From: an uncultured Desulfobacteraceae bacterium
GTDB lineage: Bacteria; Desulfobacterota; Desulfobacteria; Desulfobacterales; Desulfatirhabdiaceae
NCBI GenBank assembly: GCA_903953895.1
Contig: CAJBLH010000050.1
Coordinates: forward strand, 1 to 57,738
Length of the DNA: 57,738 nucleotides
Direction: 5' to 3'
In this document: positions 17,211 to 24,485 of the stretch, piece by piece
How positions within the stretch are numbered: the stretch's first letter is position 1
Layout: the number at the start of each line of letters is the position of its first letter
The notes under the pieces: model-generated
Told to the model about the DNA's origin: nothing
The model's input: only the letters and a program-made list of their open reading frames with translations
Database searches by the model: none
Program-made: the position numbers and the translations under genes

Positions 17211-17414
17211 ATGGGATTGTCCGCGGTATATTCTTTATTGAAAGTGATGGCAGTACTTCTTGCAGCTTCATTTCTGGGCAACTGGTTTTTGACCGAACTG
17301 AAAAAGGCGCGTGTCCTTCAAAAACCCTGGTACACGCCGTACCTGACGCTGCCGGGTCTGATGATCCTTATTGCCTTGTTCATTCCGGTTGTGGTATGGA
17401 TATACAATCGTTAG
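17211..17414 (+). CDS. Small two-helix membrane protein
   Basis: A 67-residue hypothetical with two membrane segments (about residues 5-25, LSAVYSLLKVMAVLLAASFL region, and 45-64, LTLPGLMILIALFIPVVVWI) joined by a basic loop (ELKKARVLQKPWY). The ribosome site TAGGAGG abuts ATG 17211 with no spacer, whereas the in-frame TTG at 17217 lies six bases from AGGAGG; TTG is therefore the more likely initiation codon, giving 65 residues. It sits between the SYLF gene and a soluble hypothetical gene on the same strand. Confidence 0.6.
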   Translation: MGLSAVYSLLKVMAVLLAASFLGNWFLTELKKARVLQKPWYTPYLTLPGLMILIALFIPVVVWIYNR

Positions 17415-17448
17415 TGGCGCCGCTATTCGAAAATATTCGGAGATAATC

Positions 17449-18030
17449 ATGACAGTTTCAAATCAGCATCCCATATCCGTAGAAGACATGGGGGAATCCC
17501 TGGCAAACTTTTCACTGGATCGCGAAAGTGTTCTCTTTGCCCTGAGCCGACTGCCGGATGAGCATTCCATCAACAAGGTTACCGTCGAATATGAGATCCA
17601 GTTGCTCAGGATACTCAGCGTGGGATGGGCCATATCGTATTTCATGGAGGACCATTCGGAAAAAGCACCGCTGATCAAAAAATTCTGGGATGTTTTATTC
17701 GAATTTTCGAAGAATCTTTCTTCCGTCACGTCGCTTACGATCGGAAAGGAAGTGGATTATTTCAAGACATTGAAAGAACGCATCGATACCTATCTGAAAG
17801 CCATGGCCGAAGTTCCGCACGTCAAAGACCCGGCATCGGTGATCGGGCCCACGTTCGCCAGGCTTTGCGGCAACACGGACAATGTTCATGTGATCATGGC
17901 CGGCAACCGGATATTTCATCTGTCGCTTGAAGGGGTGAAACATTTTCTGGAATCCATATTCTCGAGCGCCACGGATCAGGCAAACCAGCCTGCATATTCC
18001 GACAGACGATACGGGTCGGCGGAGTGCTGA
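17449..18030 (+). CDS. Hypothetical soluble helical protein
   Basis: An unrecognised 193-residue protein. A CGGAG site precedes ATG 17449. The sequence is mostly helical (VEYEIQLLRILSVGWAISYF, LIKKFWDVLFEFSKNL, EVDYFKTLKERIDTYLKAM), without signal peptide or conserved catalytic motif. It starts 35 bases after the small membrane protein and ends 36 bases before the histidine phosphatase, so these genes probably form one transcript. Confidence 0.65.
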   Translation: MTVSNQHPISVEDMGESLANFSLDRESVLFALSRLPDEHSINKVTVEYEIQLLRILSVGWAISYFMEDHSEKAPLIKKFWDVLFEFSKNLSSVTSLTIGKEVDYFKTLKERIDTYLKAMAEVPHVKDPASVIGPTFARLCGNTDNVHVIMAGNRIFHLSLEGVKHFLESIFSSATDQANQPAYSDRRYGSAEC

Positions 18031-18066
18031 AAATGGTTGATTGTTGATATTTCTTTTTGTCCCTTT

Positions 18067-18687
18067 ATGACCGAACCTTCCAGAACCTGTTTTGGTATGC
18101 TGCGTCACGCCGTAACGGAATGGAACCAGAGCCGACGAATTCAGGGTCAGGCCGACAGCCCGCTGACATTTACGGGTGAAGCCATGGCGCTGAGATGGGG
18201 CCAGATTCTGGCACAAAACGCCTGGCAACGGATTCTTTCCAGCGATCTCGGCAGAGCCCGAAAAACAGCCGAACTGATCAACCAGACGCTGAACCTTCCG
18301 CTGACGCTGGATTCCAGGCTCCGCGAAATGGACTGGGGAAGATGGACAGGGAAAACCACATCGCAGTTGAAAATCGAATTTTCGGAAGTTTGGACGAAGC
18401 AGACGGCGGCTGAATGGGATTTCTGTCCGCCCGAAGGTGAATCTTTCCGGGGGGTGTGGAAAAGAGGCCTGGAAGCGCTGACTGCGGCATCCTGCAACTG
18501 GCCGGGAGAGAACATCCTGGTTGTCACCCATGAAGGCATGATCAAAAGCATGATTTATCATGAAAGTACGCGCTCCGATTTCCTCAAGAACGGGCAATGT
18601 CTCATGCCGTATCACCTGCACTGCCTGATGCTTTCCAGCGGAAGGCTTACGGTTGAATACCTCAATTTTGTGAATCTTTCCTCTTGA
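18067..18687 (+). CDS. Histidine phosphatase (phosphoglycerate mutase-like)
   Basis: A phosphohydrolase of the branch-2H superfamily, 206 residues. The first catalytic motif is GMLRHAVTEWNQ, an RHA variant of the usual RHG, followed by QADSPLT, SSDLGRARKTAELI (second Arg region), LREMDWGRWTG (catalytic Glu region) and VVTHEGMI (second His). Members include alpha-ribazole and sugar-phosphate phosphatases; the substrate here is unknown. The ATG at 18067 is preferred; a longer TTG start at 18037 is possible, with GGAG about 12 bases before it. It precedes the glycan operon by 112 bases. Confidence 0.8.
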   Translation: MTEPSRTCFGMLRHAVTEWNQSRRIQGQADSPLTFTGEAMALRWGQILAQNAWQRILSSDLGRARKTAELINQTLNLPLTLDSRLREMDWGRWTGKTTSQLKIEFSEVWTKQTAAEWDFCPPEGESFRGVWKRGLEALTAASCNWPGENILVVTHEGMIKSMIYHESTRSDFLKNGQCLMPYHLHCLMLSSGRLTVEYLNFVNLSS

Positions 18688-18708
18688 TCATCCCCGTTAA
18701 AGAATTTT

Positions 18709-18765
18709 AACCACAAAAGAAAAAAATCTTTGCGTTCCTTAGCGCCTTTGCGGTGAAATAATAAT
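18709..18765. repeat. Interspersed repeat of the CTTAGCGCCTTTGCGG type
   Basis: The stretch contains AATCTTTGCGTTCC followed by TTAGCGCCTTTGCGGTGAA. This wording recurs as an intergenic repeat in many unrelated bacterial genomes. Only one copy is in this window, so the call rests on general knowledge. Confidence 0.3.
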
Positions 18766-18799
18766 GGATAAAAACATGATCCAGCCGAAATGACGAACA

Positions 18800-19969
18800 A
18801 TGCCTATGAAAATCGTTTATTATTGTCAGCACGTCCTGGGCATGGGGCATTATTTTCGAAGTCTCGAAATCTGCAAAGCATTCCGAAACCACGACGTCAT
18901 TCTGGTATCCGGCGGCGCACCCCTGAATATGCCGGTTCCGCGGCATATCCGGGAAGTGAGTCTTCTGCCGATTGGAATGGACGCGGATTTCAGCAGACTG
19001 GAGTCGAATGCTGGAACCATTGAAGAGATCAAAGCCGTCCGGCAACAGGCGCTTTATGAATTGTTTGTCTGTGAGTGCCCGGATCTGTTTATGGTCGAGC
19101 TGTATCCTTTCGGGCGAAAGGCGTTCGGTTTTGAACTGATCCCCATATTTCAGGCAATCCGGCGCGGAACGCTCTGCCCGAGTCGGGTGGTATGCAGCCT
19201 TCGGGATGTTCTGGTTGAAAAAAAAGACGTTGAGGCATACGAATCCCGGGTGATATCGGCCTTGAACCAGTGGTTCGATGCATTGTTGATCCATTCGGAT
19301 GCGGCAATCGTCACACTCGATGAAACTTTTTCCCGGATGACGGATATCCGCATTCCTGTTGTCTATACCGGATTTGTTACGCCCAGGCCTCTTGAAGGGG
19401 ATCGGAGCGCCGTTCGCCGAAAGCTTGGCATCGACGATGAAACCCGGCTGGTCGTTGCCAGCGCCGGCGGCGGAAAGGTGGGCTTTGAACTGCTGAATGC
19501 CGTGATTCGATCAGTTGCGAAAATACCGCCTGCAGGAAATGTCTATCTTCAGGTATTTACCGGTCCGTTCATGGAAGAGGAGGCGGTGCGGCATCTCCAG
19601 GACATGGGAGCGGATCGGATTTCGGTGTTGCGGTTTACTCCCGATTTTCCGGCCTATCTGGCGGCAGCGGATCTTTCTGTCAGCATGGCCGGATACAATA
19701 CCTGCATGAATATTATGGCAGCTCGAGTTCCCTCACTGGTCTGGCCCTTTTCACAAAACCGGGAACAGCGCCTTCGCGCCGAGCGTATTTCAAAAATGGG
19801 AAAAATGCGGATTCTTGAAAATGCTGATCTGGAGCCAAAAAAACTGGCGGAACTCATCACCCGGAATCTGGCTGAACGGTGCCGCTGTGATTATCCGATC
19901 GATCTGGACGGGGCCGACCATACCGCCGACTGGATACAGTCCTGGATAAAAACACAAAGGAAAGGCTGA
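18800..19969 (+). CDS. GT-B glycosyltransferase (MurG-like), first gene of a glycan operon
   Basis: A 389-residue glycosyltransferase of the GT-B fold. The N-terminal Rossmann half begins KIVYYCQHVLGMGHYFRS, with the G-x-GH loop typical of this group. The C-terminal half has VVASAGGGKVGFELL, FTPDFPAYLAAADLSVSMAG, then YNTCMNIMAARVPSLVWPF and QNREQRLRAE, which form the nucleotide-sugar site. The acceptor is unknown. The stop overlaps the next ATG by one base (TGATG at 19967-19971), so it is translationally coupled to the deacetylase-like gene. There is no signal peptide; the enzyme is cytoplasmic. Confidence 0.85.
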   Translation: MPMKIVYYCQHVLGMGHYFRSLEICKAFRNHDVILVSGGAPLNMPVPRHIREVSLLPIGMDADFSRLESNAGTIEEIKAVRQQALYELFVCECPDLFMVELYPFGRKAFGFELIPIFQAIRRGTLCPSRVVCSLRDVLVEKKDVEAYESRVISALNQWFDALLIHSDAAIVTLDETFSRMTDIRIPVVYTGFVTPRPLEGDRSAVRRKLGIDDETRLVVASAGGGKVGFELLNAVIRSVAKIPPAGNVYLQVFTGPFMEEEAVRHLQDMGADRISVLRFTPDFPAYLAAADLSVSMAGYNTCMNIMAARVPSLVWPFSQNREQRLRAERISKMGKMRILENADLEPKKLAELITRNLAERCRCDYPIDLDGADHTADWIQSWIKTQRKG

Positions 19970-20757
19970 TGTCCCATCTACCTTCACTTTTATGGAACGC
20001 ACCCTTACAGGATCTAAAACCGCGGCTTCAGGATTGTGTGGATCAGGCCGTGGATATGGCGCGTCTTTCCCCGGTACGCATTTTTTTTCGTGCCGACGAC
20101 ATCGGGGTTCCCGGAAAATGGCTTTTTCGATTGATGGATTTGTTTTTTGATCACCAAATGCCGCTGTGTCTGGCGATCGTGCCCGCCTGGTTCAACCGGC
20201 AGCGGTGGGAGGTGTTTCAGAAAATAGACGCGAAATCCCCGCAGTTATGGTGCTGGCATCAGCACGGATGGCGGCACGTTTCCCATGAAATTCAGGGGAA
20301 AAAGCAGGAATTCGGTCCGCATCGATCCATCGATGAAATTCGGCTCGATATTGTCCGGGGCCGGAAGAAACTGGAGGATCTGATGCAGGATCGGTTCACG
20401 CCCGTGTTTACCCCGCCCTGGAATCGCTGTGACGGCAGAACCTTGTCGGTATTGAGAGACAACGGGTTTAAAGCGGTTTCGCGGCACCACCACAGCATGC
20501 CCAAAACCGGAAAAGGGTTTCCGGACTTACCCGTCAACGTCGATCTGCATACCCGCCGGGAGACCACGCCGGAAGAAGGCTGGCAGTCTCTATGGAACGA
20601 GCTTAAAGCCGCCCTGTCCAGCCGAACCTGTGGTGTCATGATCCATCACCAGCGCATGAATCCGCTTGCCTTCGAGTTCCTTGAACTGTTACTGGGCATC
20701 ATGAAGCACAATCCCCGGATTCTGCCGGTTCATTTTACAGGCATGCTCCATGAATAA
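19969..20757 (+). CDS. NodB-like polysaccharide deacetylase family protein
   Basis: A 262-residue protein with the metal-dependent carbohydrate deacetylase layout: RADDIG (D43, D44), CWHQHGWRH (H97, H99, H103) and FTPPWNRCDG (motif 3). It lacks a signal peptide, so it would act in the cytoplasm on a glycoside or lipid-linked sugar rather than on cell-wall polymer. It sits between two glycosyltransferase genes, overlapping the preceding stop by one base and the following start by 8 bases, so all are almost certainly made together. Confidence 0.8.
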   Translation: MSHLPSLLWNAPLQDLKPRLQDCVDQAVDMARLSPVRIFFRADDIGVPGKWLFRLMDLFFDHQMPLCLAIVPAWFNRQRWEVFQKIDAKSPQLWCWHQHGWRHVSHEIQGKKQEFGPHRSIDEIRLDIVRGRKKLEDLMQDRFTPVFTPPWNRCDGRTLSVLRDNGFKAVSRHHHSMPKTGKGFPDLPVNVDLHTRRETTPEEGWQSLWNELKAALSSRTCGVMIHHQRMNPLAFEFLELLLGIMKHNPRILPVHFTGMLHE

Positions 20758-21754
20758 GATCATTGTCATCACCTCCATTTATCCCGCAACCCCGTCGGTG
20801 CGGAAATGGGCGGACATGCCCGGTTGGAAGGTGATTGTTGTCGGAGACAGAAAAACACCGGCGGACTGGCGCTGTCCACCGGCGACGTATCTTTCGGCGG
20901 CAGACCAGGAAAATGCGCCATTTCAGATCGTCCGAACGCTTCCCTGGAATCATTACGCCCGAAAGCTCATGGGCTATCTGGCCGCTATCGGGCAGGGCGC
21001 TGATATCATCCTGGATACCGATGATGACAATATGCCCAAACCCGACTGGGCCCTTCCCGAATTTGACGGCGCCTATCCACTGACATCGCAGAACAGGGGA
21101 TTCGTGAATGTTTACCGTTATTTTACAGATCAGCATATCTGGCCCAGAGGCTTTCCGCTGAACCGGGTCTGCGATCCGGATGCGCATCTTTGCGCTGGAG
21201 GCATCCAGCAGGAGGCGGTCAGGGTCGGGATATGGCAGGGGCTGGCCGATGGAGATCCGGATGTGGATGCCGTTTATCGAATGACCGTCAATACCCCTTG
21301 TTTTTTTGATATCAAGCCCCCGGTCGTTCTGGGGGCCGGTACCGTATCGCCTTTCAATTCCCAGAATACGGCATTCACCAAACCGGTATTTCCGCTGCTG
21401 TATCTGCCGGCTTTTGTCAGTTTCCGGTCTACCGATATTATCCGGAGCCTGGTGGCTCAGCCGATTCTCTGGAGTGCCGGCTATTTACTAGGGTTTACCG
21501 AGGCTACCGTCATCCAGAATCGCAATGATCACCATTATCTGTCAGATTTTGAATCGGAAATTCCCTGTTATCTGCATGCTGAGAAAATTCTGGATGTGGT
21601 TGCCGGAGCGGTGTTTTCGCATTTTTCTATCGAAACCAATCTGGTCAATGCTTATGAAAGCCTGATTCGTCATCACCTGATCCCGGAATCCGAGATGCGT
21701 CTGGTGTTGGCATGGGTGGAGGATATTCAGAACATGATGGTCAACCGATCTTGA
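20750..21754 (+). CDS. STELLO (DUF288)-like glycosyltransferase
   Basis: A 334-residue protein that I recognise as STELLO/DUF288-like from the N-terminus KIIVITSIYPATPSVRKWADMPGW..VVGDRKTP and the acidic motif ILDTDDDN (residues 87-94), followed by a region with WPRGFPLNRV. Plant STELLO proteins are Golgi-located and affect cellulose synthase assembly; some animal and bacterial members exist but their reaction is not established. The DxD-like cluster fits a GT-A nucleotide-sugar enzyme. It overlaps the deacetylase gene by 8 bases and the HAD gene at its stop. Confidence 0.75.
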   Translation: MNKIIVITSIYPATPSVRKWADMPGWKVIVVGDRKTPADWRCPPATYLSAADQENAPFQIVRTLPWNHYARKLMGYLAAIGQGADIILDTDDDNMPKPDWALPEFDGAYPLTSQNRGFVNVYRYFTDQHIWPRGFPLNRVCDPDAHLCAGGIQQEAVRVGIWQGLADGDPDVDAVYRMTVNTPCFFDIKPPVVLGAGTVSPFNSQNTAFTKPVFPLLYLPAFVSFRSTDIIRSLVAQPILWSAGYLLGFTEATVIQNRNDHHYLSDFESEIPCYLHAEKILDVVAGAVFSHFSIETNLVNAYESLIRHHLIPESEMRLVLAWVEDIQNMMVNRS

Positions 21755-22614
21755 AACCGTTTCATTCTCAGGCGATGCTGATTACGGATCTGGACGGAAC
21801 CCTGCTGGGTTCGGATGGAAACATGACACAGCAGGATCACGATGCATTGGTCTGTCTGGGGAATCACGGTATTGTTCGGGTGATTGCAACGGGTCGGTCC
21901 CTGTATTCCTTCAAAAAAGCCATTGGAGAAGACATGCCGGTAGATTATATCATTTTTTCAACCGGCGCCGGAGTCATTACCTTCCCGGGCGGCCGACTGA
22001 TCCGAAATATTCACATGGATTCCTGGGCCGTGTCGTCGGCTGTGCGGATATTGATGGGATGCGATCTCGATTTCATGGTGCATCGGCCCATTCCGGACAA
22101 TCACTGGTTTTTCTATTACGACACCGGCAAAGACAACCCGGATTTTCACCGGCGTATCGATCGTTACAGCAGCTTCTGTCAACCGATAGACAGTGCATTT
22201 TCCGATTTCGGAGCGGCTTCTCAGTTGCTTGCCGTGGTCAATCATGATATCGGTGCATCCGTGTTCTCCGATCTTGCGTTGAAACTGTCCGGCTACAGCG
22301 TTATCCGATCCACTTCGCCCCTGGATGGAAAATCTGCCTGGATCGAGGTGTTTGCCGCCGGTGTCAGCAAAAGTCAGTGCGCTGCATGGCTGGCAGATCG
22401 ATTGCGTATCGATAAAGAGCTTGTTCTGGCCGTGGGCAATGATTATAATGACTCAGATTTACTGGAGTGGTCAGGAACGGCCTTTATGGTTGGCAATGCA
22501 CCCGATGCCTTGAAAAAGAGATTTCCTTCTGTAGCTCCTCAGAAACAGGCCGGGGTGGCAGAAGCGGTTCACCGGTGGTTGACGGATCGCAATTCTGTAA
22601 GAAAAAATAGGTAA
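21751..22614 (+). CDS. HAD-IIB family hydrolase (sugar phosphatase-like)
   Basis: A Cof/SPP-type HAD phosphatase of about 287 residues. Motif I is ITDLDGTLL, motif II is VIATGRS, and the C-terminal motif is AVGNDYNDSDLL; a C2-type cap lies between. The start is uncertain: TTG 21751 overlaps the preceding TGA, ATG 21775 directly precedes the first strand (MLITDLDG), and ATG 21712 lies inside the upstream gene. All starts lack a strong ribosome site, which fits translational coupling. Mannosylglycerate and sucrose phosphatases belong to this branch, so a sugar-phosphate product of the operon's transferases is a plausible substrate (inference). Confidence 0.82.
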   Translation: MKPFHSQAMLITDLDGTLLGSDGNMTQQDHDALVCLGNHGIVRVIATGRSLYSFKKAIGEDMPVDYIIFSTGAGVITFPGGRLIRNIHMDSWAVSSAVRILMGCDLDFMVHRPIPDNHWFFYYDTGKDNPDFHRRIDRYSSFCQPIDSAFSDFGAASQLLAVVNHDIGASVFSDLALKLSGYSVIRSTSPLDGKSAWIEVFAAGVSKSQCAAWLADRLRIDKELVLAVGNDYNDSDLLEWSGTAFMVGNAPDALKKRFPSVAPQKQAGVAEAVHRWLTDRNSVRKNR

Positions 22615-22744
22615 CTCAAAACATATCATCTACCAAATGGGCGTTTATTTCATATGAGTTGCCTTAAATACCCCTATGGGTGGGTTTCAATCCTGCCCTC
22701 GACCGCAGTGTTATTATGAACGTAATCTGTTAAGGAGGTTTATC

Positions 22745-24031
22745 ATGGCTGAACATCCCGATAAGATGTCAAAAAATTTCCAGGTCGCCTTGAATGTGGG
22801 CAGGCCCCCCAATATTGTGCGGCTTTTTCCCAATTCAAAGGCGCTGATCGTCAGTGGTAAATATATCGATCAGGCCATGCTGGCCAGGGGAAAAGCAATT
22901 TCCATGGCGGCGAACGGCAGAAATATTTTTGTCATTCGCGGAGCACTCGCCGCTGCCCAACGGGCCAATTCCGTGATTATCATCGAAATCGCCAAGTCGG
23001 AAGGAACCTATTGCGCGGTCAATTTCTGGAACATCGCCCGGCAGGTGGACGCTCTGTGCAACGAGATGGGTATCACGGTTCCGGTCGCCATCCATGCGGA
23101 TCACTACGGAATCAAATCAAAGGAAGATACGGCTCAGGCGATGATCGAGATTCCGACCATTTTTGAAGCTGGTATCACATCGATTGCCATCGATGCCTCG
23201 CACATGCCAGATGATCAGAATCTGTTGGCCAATCTCGCCCTGTATCCTTATATTCCTGAATGGGCCGGACTTGAAACCGAGGTTGGCGAAATCAAAGGAA
23301 AGACCGGTCTGTCTACGGTGGATGAAGCGCTTTTTCTCATTCAGGGGCTGAATGCGCATGATATCTTCCCGAACTGGATCGCTTTAAACAACGGCACCAC
23401 CCATGGCATCGAGGCCAGTGATCAGGGAATTCAGGTCGGGTTGACACAGCGCATTCATGAAGCGCTGACGCCATACAGCGTTTCTGGCGCCCAGCATGGA
23501 ACATCCGGCAACAGCTCGGATCGTCTCAGGGAAATCGCCACACGAACCCGGACCACGAAGGCCAATGTGGCCACAGCCCTTCAGATGATTTCGTGGGGAC
23601 TTGAAGTCAATGATTATGGAAACGCCATCATGGCGTCGGATGGAAAATTCATCAAGGTTCCGGGTGAAGGCGTTACCGAAGAAATGTGGCGGGAAATGGT
23701 GGCATATGCTGATGCCAAGGGCCTTAAAAAAGGTGATTACAAGAAACTCAATCTTCCATTTGAAAGCAAGCTCCTTGCCCAGCCCACTGCGGTTCGTGAT
23801 CGCATGTCCAAACGGGTGGAAGATTTTGTGTATCAGATGCTGATGACGGTGTTCAACGCCGGGGACACGGCGCCGCTGGCCATCGAGGCCATTCTCGGCG
23901 CCAATTCTTGTGATCCTGGCCCAAAGGCAAAGCGGATAGAAGATCCGTCTGAGTGGACGCCGGAAAAGATTGCTGTTCGGGCGTTATCGGTTGAAGCCGA
24001 TAAGGGCGCAACCGGCAATTTTGATGATTGA
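22745..24031 (+). CDS. fba: Class II fructose-bisphosphate aldolase family enzyme
   Basis: A 428-residue zinc-type aldolase. Visible motifs are AIHADHYG (catalytic Asp and Zn His), IDASHMPD, ETEVGEI (Zn-site region), and GAQHGTSGNSSD (phosphate-binding loop with the third Zn His). The length exceeds that of E. coli FbaA (359), resembling the longer class II group. The start at 22745 has an excellent AAGGAGGT site seven bases upstream; the frame is open further but without support. The gene stands 130 bases after the glycan operon and could be read from it or from its own promoter. Confidence 0.88.
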   Translation: MAEHPDKMSKNFQVALNVGRPPNIVRLFPNSKALIVSGKYIDQAMLARGKAISMAANGRNIFVIRGALAAAQRANSVIIIEIAKSEGTYCAVNFWNIARQVDALCNEMGITVPVAIHADHYGIKSKEDTAQAMIEIPTIFEAGITSIAIDASHMPDDQNLLANLALYPYIPEWAGLETEVGEIKGKTGLSTVDEALFLIQGLNAHDIFPNWIALNNGTTHGIEASDQGIQVGLTQRIHEALTPYSVSGAQHGTSGNSSDRLREIATRTRTTKANVATALQMISWGLEVNDYGNAIMASDGKFIKVPGEGVTEEMWREMVAYADAKGLKKGDYKKLNLPFESKLLAQPTAVRDRMSKRVEDFVYQMLMTVFNAGDTAPLAIEAILGANSCDPGPKAKRIEDPSEWTPEKIAVRALSVEADKGATGNFDD

Positions 24032-24158: not shown

Positions 24159-24485
24159 ATGTCAGAGAAATTGATCATCCCCGATGAGTTTCAAGGATCG
24201 ATCCGGCGGCTGTTGAGTCGGATTCCATCCGAGCAGCGGGATGATGAAACCCTTCAAGCATCCCTGCTGATATATTTGAAGCTGGGCGGAGAAAAACTGG
24301 CCCGTCATTACATTGAAATATCTAAAAAAGTATTTCCAGACCAGATGGTTCTGATCAAAAGACAGCTTCGAGAAGGCATCGACGAAGATGAAGCCGATGA
24401 GGAAAATCTGGATGGCGCCGAAAGAGATGAGGCATATCTTCCGGATTTTGGCAAACCGGACTCGAGTTCACCGGATTTTGTCTGA
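24159..24485 (+). CDS. Hypothetical acidic protein
   Basis: An unrecognised 108-residue protein. AGGAG lies eight bases before the ATG. The N-terminal half is helical (FQGSIRRLLSRIPSEQRDDETLQASLLIYLKLG), and the C-terminal third is strongly acidic and probably disordered (EGIDEDEADEENLDGAERDE). Its last 18 bases overlap the 3' end of hisD on the opposite strand. Confidence 0.65.
   Translation: MSEKLIIPDEFQGSIRRLLSRIPSEQRDDETLQASLLIYLKLGGEKLARHYIEISKKVFPDQMVLIKRQLREGIDEDEADEENLDGAERDEAYLPDFGKPDSSSPDFV

Follow-up and report, generated by a model that had tools for sequence, protein, structure and literature searches.

As four adjoining genes of an uncultured Desulfobacteraceae bacterium combine a glycosyltransferase (GTB1), a NodB-like deacetylase (NODB), a STELLO-like protein (MUT) and a HAD-type phosphatase (HAD), we were interested which product such a set could make and whether it could do so on its own. 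The genes lie in a stretch of 57,738 nucleotides (nt), here called the window, which corresponds to contig C50 in an assembly of 315 contigs; the relatives that carry names are Desulfobacteraceae or deltaproteobacterial metagenome assemblies. A preliminary description had read the four genes as an operon sufficient for a small phosphorylated glycoside or a lipid-linked glycan. All four open reading frames (ORFs) were confirmed at their described places on the plus strand (Table 1), and Pfam broadly confirms the families to which they had been assigned. Taken as a whole, the window genes are best explained as part of a system that makes and exports a glycoconjugate with a furanose sugar, a reading that we consider probable on balance. 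The cluster to which they belong is conserved and apparently undescribed, its bounds had been drawn wrongly, and one of its enzymes was probably misnamed. The earlier statement that no characterised pathway contains this set agrees with the literature searched, in which no description was found (subscription papers lay outside this search).

Central to this reading is MUT, which had been counted as a STELLO (DUF288)-like transferase with a DTDDD motif (residues 89-93). The name was borne out in so far as MUT exceeds the cut-off of the Pfam profile STELLO (43.9 bits vs 27.8), but the match covers only positions 1-106 of 387 instead of the whole profile, and MtdL chains were the sole strong solved relatives found by sequence (PDB, 5e-21). 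Structure prediction from 39 sequences led to a strong model (predicted local distance difference test, pLDDT, 94.4) with the full-length GT75 fold, that is, a GT-A fold of core and C-terminal helices. When this model was searched with Foldseek, six MtdL chains came first (1e-22 to 2.8e-21), followed by rice UAM2 (3.7e-12), and ordinary GT-A transferases ranked far lower (5e-5 and weaker); comparison by VIA gave Z 37.0 for MtdL (root-mean-square deviation 2.4, 327 of 334 residues aligned), Z 26.1 for rice UAM2 and 13.7 for the next structure. Twelve of 16 mapped active-site positions of MtdL are identical in MUT (D109, D110, D111, N112, R159, D195, S228, Q229, R257, D260, R289 and H292), nine of them being invariant across 39 aligned rows. 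The DDD motif (D91-D92-D93 of MUT), R133 as the counterpart of the auto-glycosylated Arg159 of MtdL, and the equivalents of D195, Q229, R257 and D260 are unchanged in 39 of 39 rows. Seven of the eight sugar-site residues whose mutation lowers or abolishes MtdL activity are identical in MUT, including Arg159 (PMC9937993). By sequence and predicted structure MUT is an MtdL-like protein, which has the complete fold and the majority of the active-site residues of a nucleoside diphosphate (NDP)-pyranose/furanose mutase, in place of the second transferase assumed before, and it probably acts as an NDP-sugar mutase. We call it MtdL-like and not a GT75 mutase because the Mn-coordinating His287 is replaced by Gln256, and since the sugar-binding residue differs as well, mutase activity is given as probable only. 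As of 2023, only two bacterial GT75 members had been characterised (PMC9937993). A GT75-like region in plant STELLO was noted earlier in PMC4906169, the only source within the literature searched in which STELLO and mutase are brought together.

The surroundings of MUT were followed through 291 genomes of the order, with E < 1e-50 for strong GTB1 homologues and E <= 1e-10 for MUT matches. Strong GTB1 homologues were detected in 78 genomes (87 at 1e-10), strong NODB homologues in 55 and MUT matches in 24; a phylum-wide search over 297 genomes detected MUT in 6, of which three had been known before. Strong GTB1 accompanies NODB in 54 of the 55 genomes, the exception being G002, in which the contig begins inside NODB, and the two genes lie at most 300 nt apart in 49. 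They are located on separate contigs in G007 and G082, and are spaced by 639 nt in G061, 2970 nt in G090 and 6815 nt in G126. MUT adjoins NODB in 14 of the 24 genomes with a MUT match (seven of this genus, G044 and six of family f69), and GTB1, NODB and MUT occur together in three families. Co-conservation, proposed earlier as a check on all four genes, was thus found for these three; beyond the genus it does not extend to HAD.

Outside the genus 19 loci were examined, namely G044 and 18 chosen stretches from 16 genomes, picked from the hits. A histidine phosphatase gene (hisP) is located 5' of GTB1 on the same strand in all 17 loci with GTB1; it is usually adjacent, with intervening DNA in G044, G032 and G035 (up to ~3.9 kb in G035). 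NODB follows GTB1 in 15 of these 17 loci (exceptions G035 and G007), and the common order is GTB2-GT4a-GT4b-hisP-GTB1-NODB, GT4b being missing from the three f69 loci. NODB is then followed by FtsX-LolD-large permease in L126, L129, L130 and L131, and MUT-GTA21 is inserted between NODB and FtsX in L019, L115, L116 and L117. Genes of FtsX-LolD type share stretch and strand with the module in eight loci; the FtsX-LolD-permease genes of L120 are on the opposite strand, and several loci have none on the stretch. The full set is GTB2-GT4a-(GT4b)-hisP-GTB1-NODB-[MUT-GTA21]-FtsX-LolD-large FtsX/M28 permease, about ten genes, so that the four genes once thought sufficient are joined by the upstream hisP, two to three more transferases and an ATP-binding cassette (ABC) transporter. 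On rhizobial plasmids GTB2-GT4-GTB1 is accompanied by neighbouring ABC transporters; in S. meliloti, NodB and a GT4 are located ~13 kb away.

All pieces of this cluster are present in the genome of the window, spread over three contigs: hisP-GTB1-NODB-MUT in the window, GTB2-GT4a-GT4b on C199 and GTA21-FtsX-LolD-large permease on C209. Since each piece keeps the order of the intact cluster, the window operon looks like a fragment of an older cluster, positions 18037-21754 apparently being the middle third of a larger one that was split into loci in this genus. Where GTA21 is located on a different contig (G000 and G001), it is still followed by FtsX-LolD-permease. The LolD-like ATPase reached 227.5 bits with the LolD model, under its cut-off of 307.75. 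The ~1600-aa permease beside LolD (L131:11186-16001, L242:1-4771), M28-peptidase-like plus FtsX, makes an unusual transporter. C199 also holds, two genes 5' of GTB2, a fusion of a nucleotidyltransferase with an APH-type kinase (L234:10445-12172), which resembles MurU and AmgK below their cut-offs and recurs in the same arrangement in G004 (L223). Furthermore, a single ORF 3' of GT4b (L234:1946-3577) has matches to UbiA prenyltransferase as well as to the permease domain of an ABC importer, an odd fusion.

The candidate partner of MUT is GTA21, a protein in two parts. Its N-terminal half contains a DxD (D77 and D79 in L115 numbering, invariant in seven sequences), its C-terminal half resembles DUF7796, and in G044 each half is an ORF of its own. 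Its DxD-like motifs and gene context suggest a probable glycosyltransferase. GTA21 was found in 12 of the 291 genomes, all 12 within the 15 that carry a module-type MUT, although these genomes are related members of three families and not 12 independent events. Its gene immediately follows MUT in G044 as well as in each of the five f69 genomes that have GTA21. Viral homologues of MUT were analysed for the best 80 of 226 IMG/VR stretches, where one N-terminal half of GTA21 overlaps MUT (119 bits) and the DUF7796-like half occurs 0.8 and 2 kb upstream of MUT (60 and 58 bits); NODB relatives were detected at two loci on viral contigs. We tentatively propose, as a possibility short of a probable one, that MUT-GTA21 is a mobile two-gene cassette of bacteria and viral contigs, consisting of a metal-dependent mutase from a new GT75-like clade with Gln for the metal His and of a so far unrecognised two-domain transferase for the furanose donor thus made, which has been plugged into an undescribed order-wide glycoconjugate export system.

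With regard to the sugar, heptose and fucosyltransferase genes lie beside the homologue in phage S-T4 (retrieved by a search with the G045 protein), GDP-mannose dehydratases ~8 kb from MUT on an Azospirillum plasmid, and an SDR weakly like guanosine diphosphate (GDP)-fucose synthase (91 of 500 bits) adjoins the homologue in G045. Elsewhere in the genome of the window, gmd (603 bits) is found beside a GDP-fucose-synthase-like gene (457 of 500 bits). Judged by such gene context only, the substrate of MUT is perhaps a GDP-6-deoxy-hexose such as GDP-fucose. The homologue of cyanophage S-T4 is labelled 'putative membrane protein'. On Sphingomonas and Azospirillum plasmids a family free of Pfam matches stands beside the mutase (L028:8917-9888, L029:8950-9924; 27% identity); it contains an SDD/QDD stretch and may be a further partner transferase.

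The remaining enzymes of the window fit a route to a glycan in which a GT-B transferase and a NodB-fold deacetylase act in the cytoplasm, and this part of the preliminary description is supported. For hisP the nearest solved chains were the phosphatase 1ebb/1h2e (9e-24) and the glucosyl-3-phosphoglycerate phosphatase 4pz9 (5e-14). GTB1, which we take to belong to the GT-B family COG4671, matches MurG 1f0k with residues 214-351 (6.4e-6); MurG proper was ruled out by the wide margin to the equivalog model (42.9 bits vs 250.25). NODB remained under the cut-off of the polysaccharide-deacetylase model of Pfam (18.6 vs 23.1), and its structure was predicted because a sequence search of the PDB gave nothing useful. 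The resulting moderate model (pLDDT 84.0, from 6 sequences) was led by CE4/NodB structures in VIA (3rxz Z 18.7, ArnD 8t0j Z 16.7); in Foldseek a viral turret protein came first and ArnD second. D43, D44, H99, H103, PPWNR and H226 are invariant in nine rows, their individual roles presumably being those of the NodB motifs. According to this model, NODB has a NodB/CE4 fold. As described before for all four genes, no signal peptide was visible by eye.

From these genes, we infer reactions, donor sugar, order of steps and product as follows. The transferases would build up an oligosaccharide or a glycolipid within the cytoplasm, hisP would remove phosphate from an intermediate, and NODB would take off an acyl group, probably N-acetyl. 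By use of a metal and the conserved arginine, MUT would turn an NDP-pyranose into the corresponding NDP-furanose, its substrate perhaps being a GDP-6-deoxy-hexose such as GDP-fucose, and GTA21 would transfer this furanose. Finally, the FtsX/LolD transporter (Lol/MacB-type ABC) may move the product from the cytoplasm or off the inner membrane.

Several observations weigh against a furanose-forming export system, the first group of them concerning MUT itself. At the Mn-binding position the His287 expected for GT75 was not found (Gln256 in MUT, Gln in 38 of 39 rows), and the sugar-binding Asp87 is replaced by Tyr69, at a position where 11 of 39 rows have Tyr and 24 have Ile. D87N and D87S abolished the activity of MtdL, and the exchange S91Y in AtRGP2, which introduces the Tyr of the inactive AtRGP5, abolished formation of uridine diphosphate (UDP)-Galf (PMC9937993). 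The base-contact Ser86 of MtdL is His68 in MUT, and a GDP preference is therefore unsupported by its residues. Moreover, the equivalent arginine is dispensable in plant STELLO, which needs the DXD and not the RGP-type arginine (PMC4906169), and the wider family thus need not act as mutase. The changed metal ligand and sugar-binding residue, together with the Pfam match above cut-off, would suit a true GT-A glycosyltransferase that retains a GT75 fold but has lost mutase activity or never had it, in an operon with two transferases. We regard this as unlikely, if the strongest of the alternatives, as the arginine and the equivalents of D195, Q229, R257 and D260 do not vary, the match to MtdL and UAM is full-length with ordinary transferases far behind, and the STELLO match is confined to the quoted part of the profile.

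A second group concerns the link between an MtdL-like mutase and the module. No MUT match is present in 39 of the 55 strong-NODB genomes, so that the module works without MUT, and in G007 MUT, GTB1, NODB and GTA21 are on four contigs. GTA21 is without a solved relative by sequence and without a match in three genomes with a module MUT (G003, G005 and G200, 89, 67 and 80% complete; the MUT of G200 reaches the contig end). Other MUT homologues occur in nine genomes of the order (G031, G045, G076, G102, G116, G146, G147, G194 and G227, of which G031 and G227 are contig-end fragments), where no GTA21 match was found and MUT is not beside NODB. Neither half of GTA21 is nearby in 76 of the 80 viral loci, one further match being weak (24 bits, N-terminal half). 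The genome of the window also encodes a flavin adenine dinucleotide (FAD)-type UDP-galactopyranose mutase; MUT is therefore not the sole possible source of a furanose, and an argument from the absence of another source was dropped. GTB1-NODB and MUT-GTA21 might thus be functionally separate units that are merely adjacent in some lineages, which would also agree with MUT homologues in other glycan clusters and with the scatter of MUT carriers on two trees of 39 rows, that of GTB1 (11 carriers, 4 label changes) and that of NODB (14 carriers, 6 label changes), where MUT may have had one origin. This alternative appears quite unlikely, since the insertion falls between NODB and FtsX alike in G044 and three f69 genomes, where the ORFs of NODB and MUT either overlap or are separated by no more than about 50 nt, and since GTA21 precedes FtsX-LolD-permease even on the other contig of G000 and G001. 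Least of all do we expect a self-contained small-molecule route of the four genes (transfer to a phosphorylated acceptor, dephosphorylation by HAD and deacetylation, following the logic by which mycothiol or glucosylglycerate is made), for although the gene set as listed, the linkage of HAD in all six genus genomes having it and the similarity of hisP to glucosyl-3-phosphoglycerate phosphatase would suit it, HAD leaves the module outside the genus, two or three further glycosyltransferases accompany the module in most loci, and FtsX-LolD-type genes do so in eight.

HAD was accordingly rejected as a pathway member, and the dephosphorylation step once assigned to it was given up. HAD matches were found in 57 of the 291 genomes, of which only six, all of this genus, have HAD next to the module (a further one, G005, had no HAD match); elsewhere HAD is on another contig, far off on the same contig or in a genome without NODB. 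In the sister genus (G007) it is paired with the aldolase gene (L221), as in this genus, and sits with a glycogen-debranching-type gene, and an aldolase homologue is ~6 kb away in G228. In five stretches examined from outside the family (G022, G155, G019, G228 and G035) its scanned neighbours are genes for thiolase, MgsA-type ATPase, GTPase, aminotransferase, M24 peptidase, PPDK, aldehyde dehydrogenase and hydrolase. A mannosylglycerate-phosphatase function was also dismissed by wide margins, with <=19.8 bits vs 244-373 for the mannosyl-3-phosphoglycerate phosphatase equivalogs and 28.6 vs 164.75 for the wider family model. HAD and the following aldolase-like gene are probably outside the glycan route. 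Of the overlaps of 1-8 bases reported before, those of GTB1/NODB (1 nt) and NODB/MUT (8 nt) are correct; the third is 43 nt for HAD as listed, and more likely a gap of 20 nt, because matches from outside the genus, partial ones aside, begin at residue 17-22 and point to ATG 21775 as start. The start of hisP is ambiguous (TTG 18037, ATG 18067 or ATG 18097), and that of the aldolase-like gene (listed ORF 22676-24031) was placed 3' of an AAGGAGG. A scan for promoter-like sites (10 vs 7.7 expected) and terminator-like sites (10 vs 8.1) did not delimit the operon. Two small genes are kept near the module across the genus, at 17371-18030 (without a Pfam match at E 1) and at 24159-24485.

Table 1. 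Genes of the module and its 3' flank in the window.
Gene	Position	Strand	Assignment	Pfam or related evidence
hisP	18037..18687	+	Histidine-phosphatase-superfamily enzyme; module member	His_Phos_1, 157 bits
GTB1	18800..19969	+	GT-B glycosyltransferase, GT28/MurG-type C-terminal domain	Glyco_tran_28_C, 65.3 bits, 9e-18
NODB	19969..20757	+	NodB-fold (CE4/ArnD-like) deacetylase	DUF2334, 29.6 bits, 6.6e-7
MUT	20750..21754	+	MtdL-like (GT75-fold) putative NDP-sugar pyranose/furanose mutase	STELLO (PF03385)
HAD	21712..22614 (listed ORF)	+	HAD-IIB (Cof-type) phosphatase	Hydrolase_3, 108.3 bits, 7.2e-31
Class II aldolase-like gene	22745..24031	+	Flanking gene	F_bP_aldolase, 8.5e-24

If the reading of MUT as a mutase in a glycoconjugate export system is right, records annotated as 'STELLO glycosyltransferase' would hide a family of mutases or mutase relatives, viral ones among them. 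The analysis also yields a delimited set of genes, with GTA21 as candidate transferase partner and with an exporter, and bears on the open question of plant STELLO function. Among known systems MUT is closest to MtdL, the GDP-L-galactose/GDP-L-fucose pyranose-furanose mutase (GT75) of A201A biosynthesis, with which it shares the full-length fold, the DDD motif, the catalytic arginine and the equivalents of D195, S228, Q229, R257, D260, R289 and H292. Both differ in His287, Asp87, Ser86 and Arg90 of MtdL, which are Gln, Tyr, His and Lys in MUT (26% identity in the structural alignment), and in context, an antibiotic cluster for MtdL and a glycan/export cluster for MUT. From plant STELLO, whose profile it matches in part, MUT differs as a bacterial protein in which no membrane anchor was seen. 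The plant UDP-arabinopyranose mutases (RGP/UAM, GT75) have a similar fold (293 residues aligned with rice UAM2) at 13% identity, and a UDP-sugar specificity of MUT is neither supported nor excluded by this comparison. NODB shares the NodB fold and the Asp/His metal-site pattern with ArnD/NodB/CE4 deacetylases but represents a DUF2334-type subfamily. Finally, the cluster ends like LolCDE/MacB-type ABC exporters with a LolD-like ATPase and FtsX-type permeases, from which it is set apart by an ATPase below the LolD cut-off and by one permease of ~1600 aa with an M28-peptidase-like domain.

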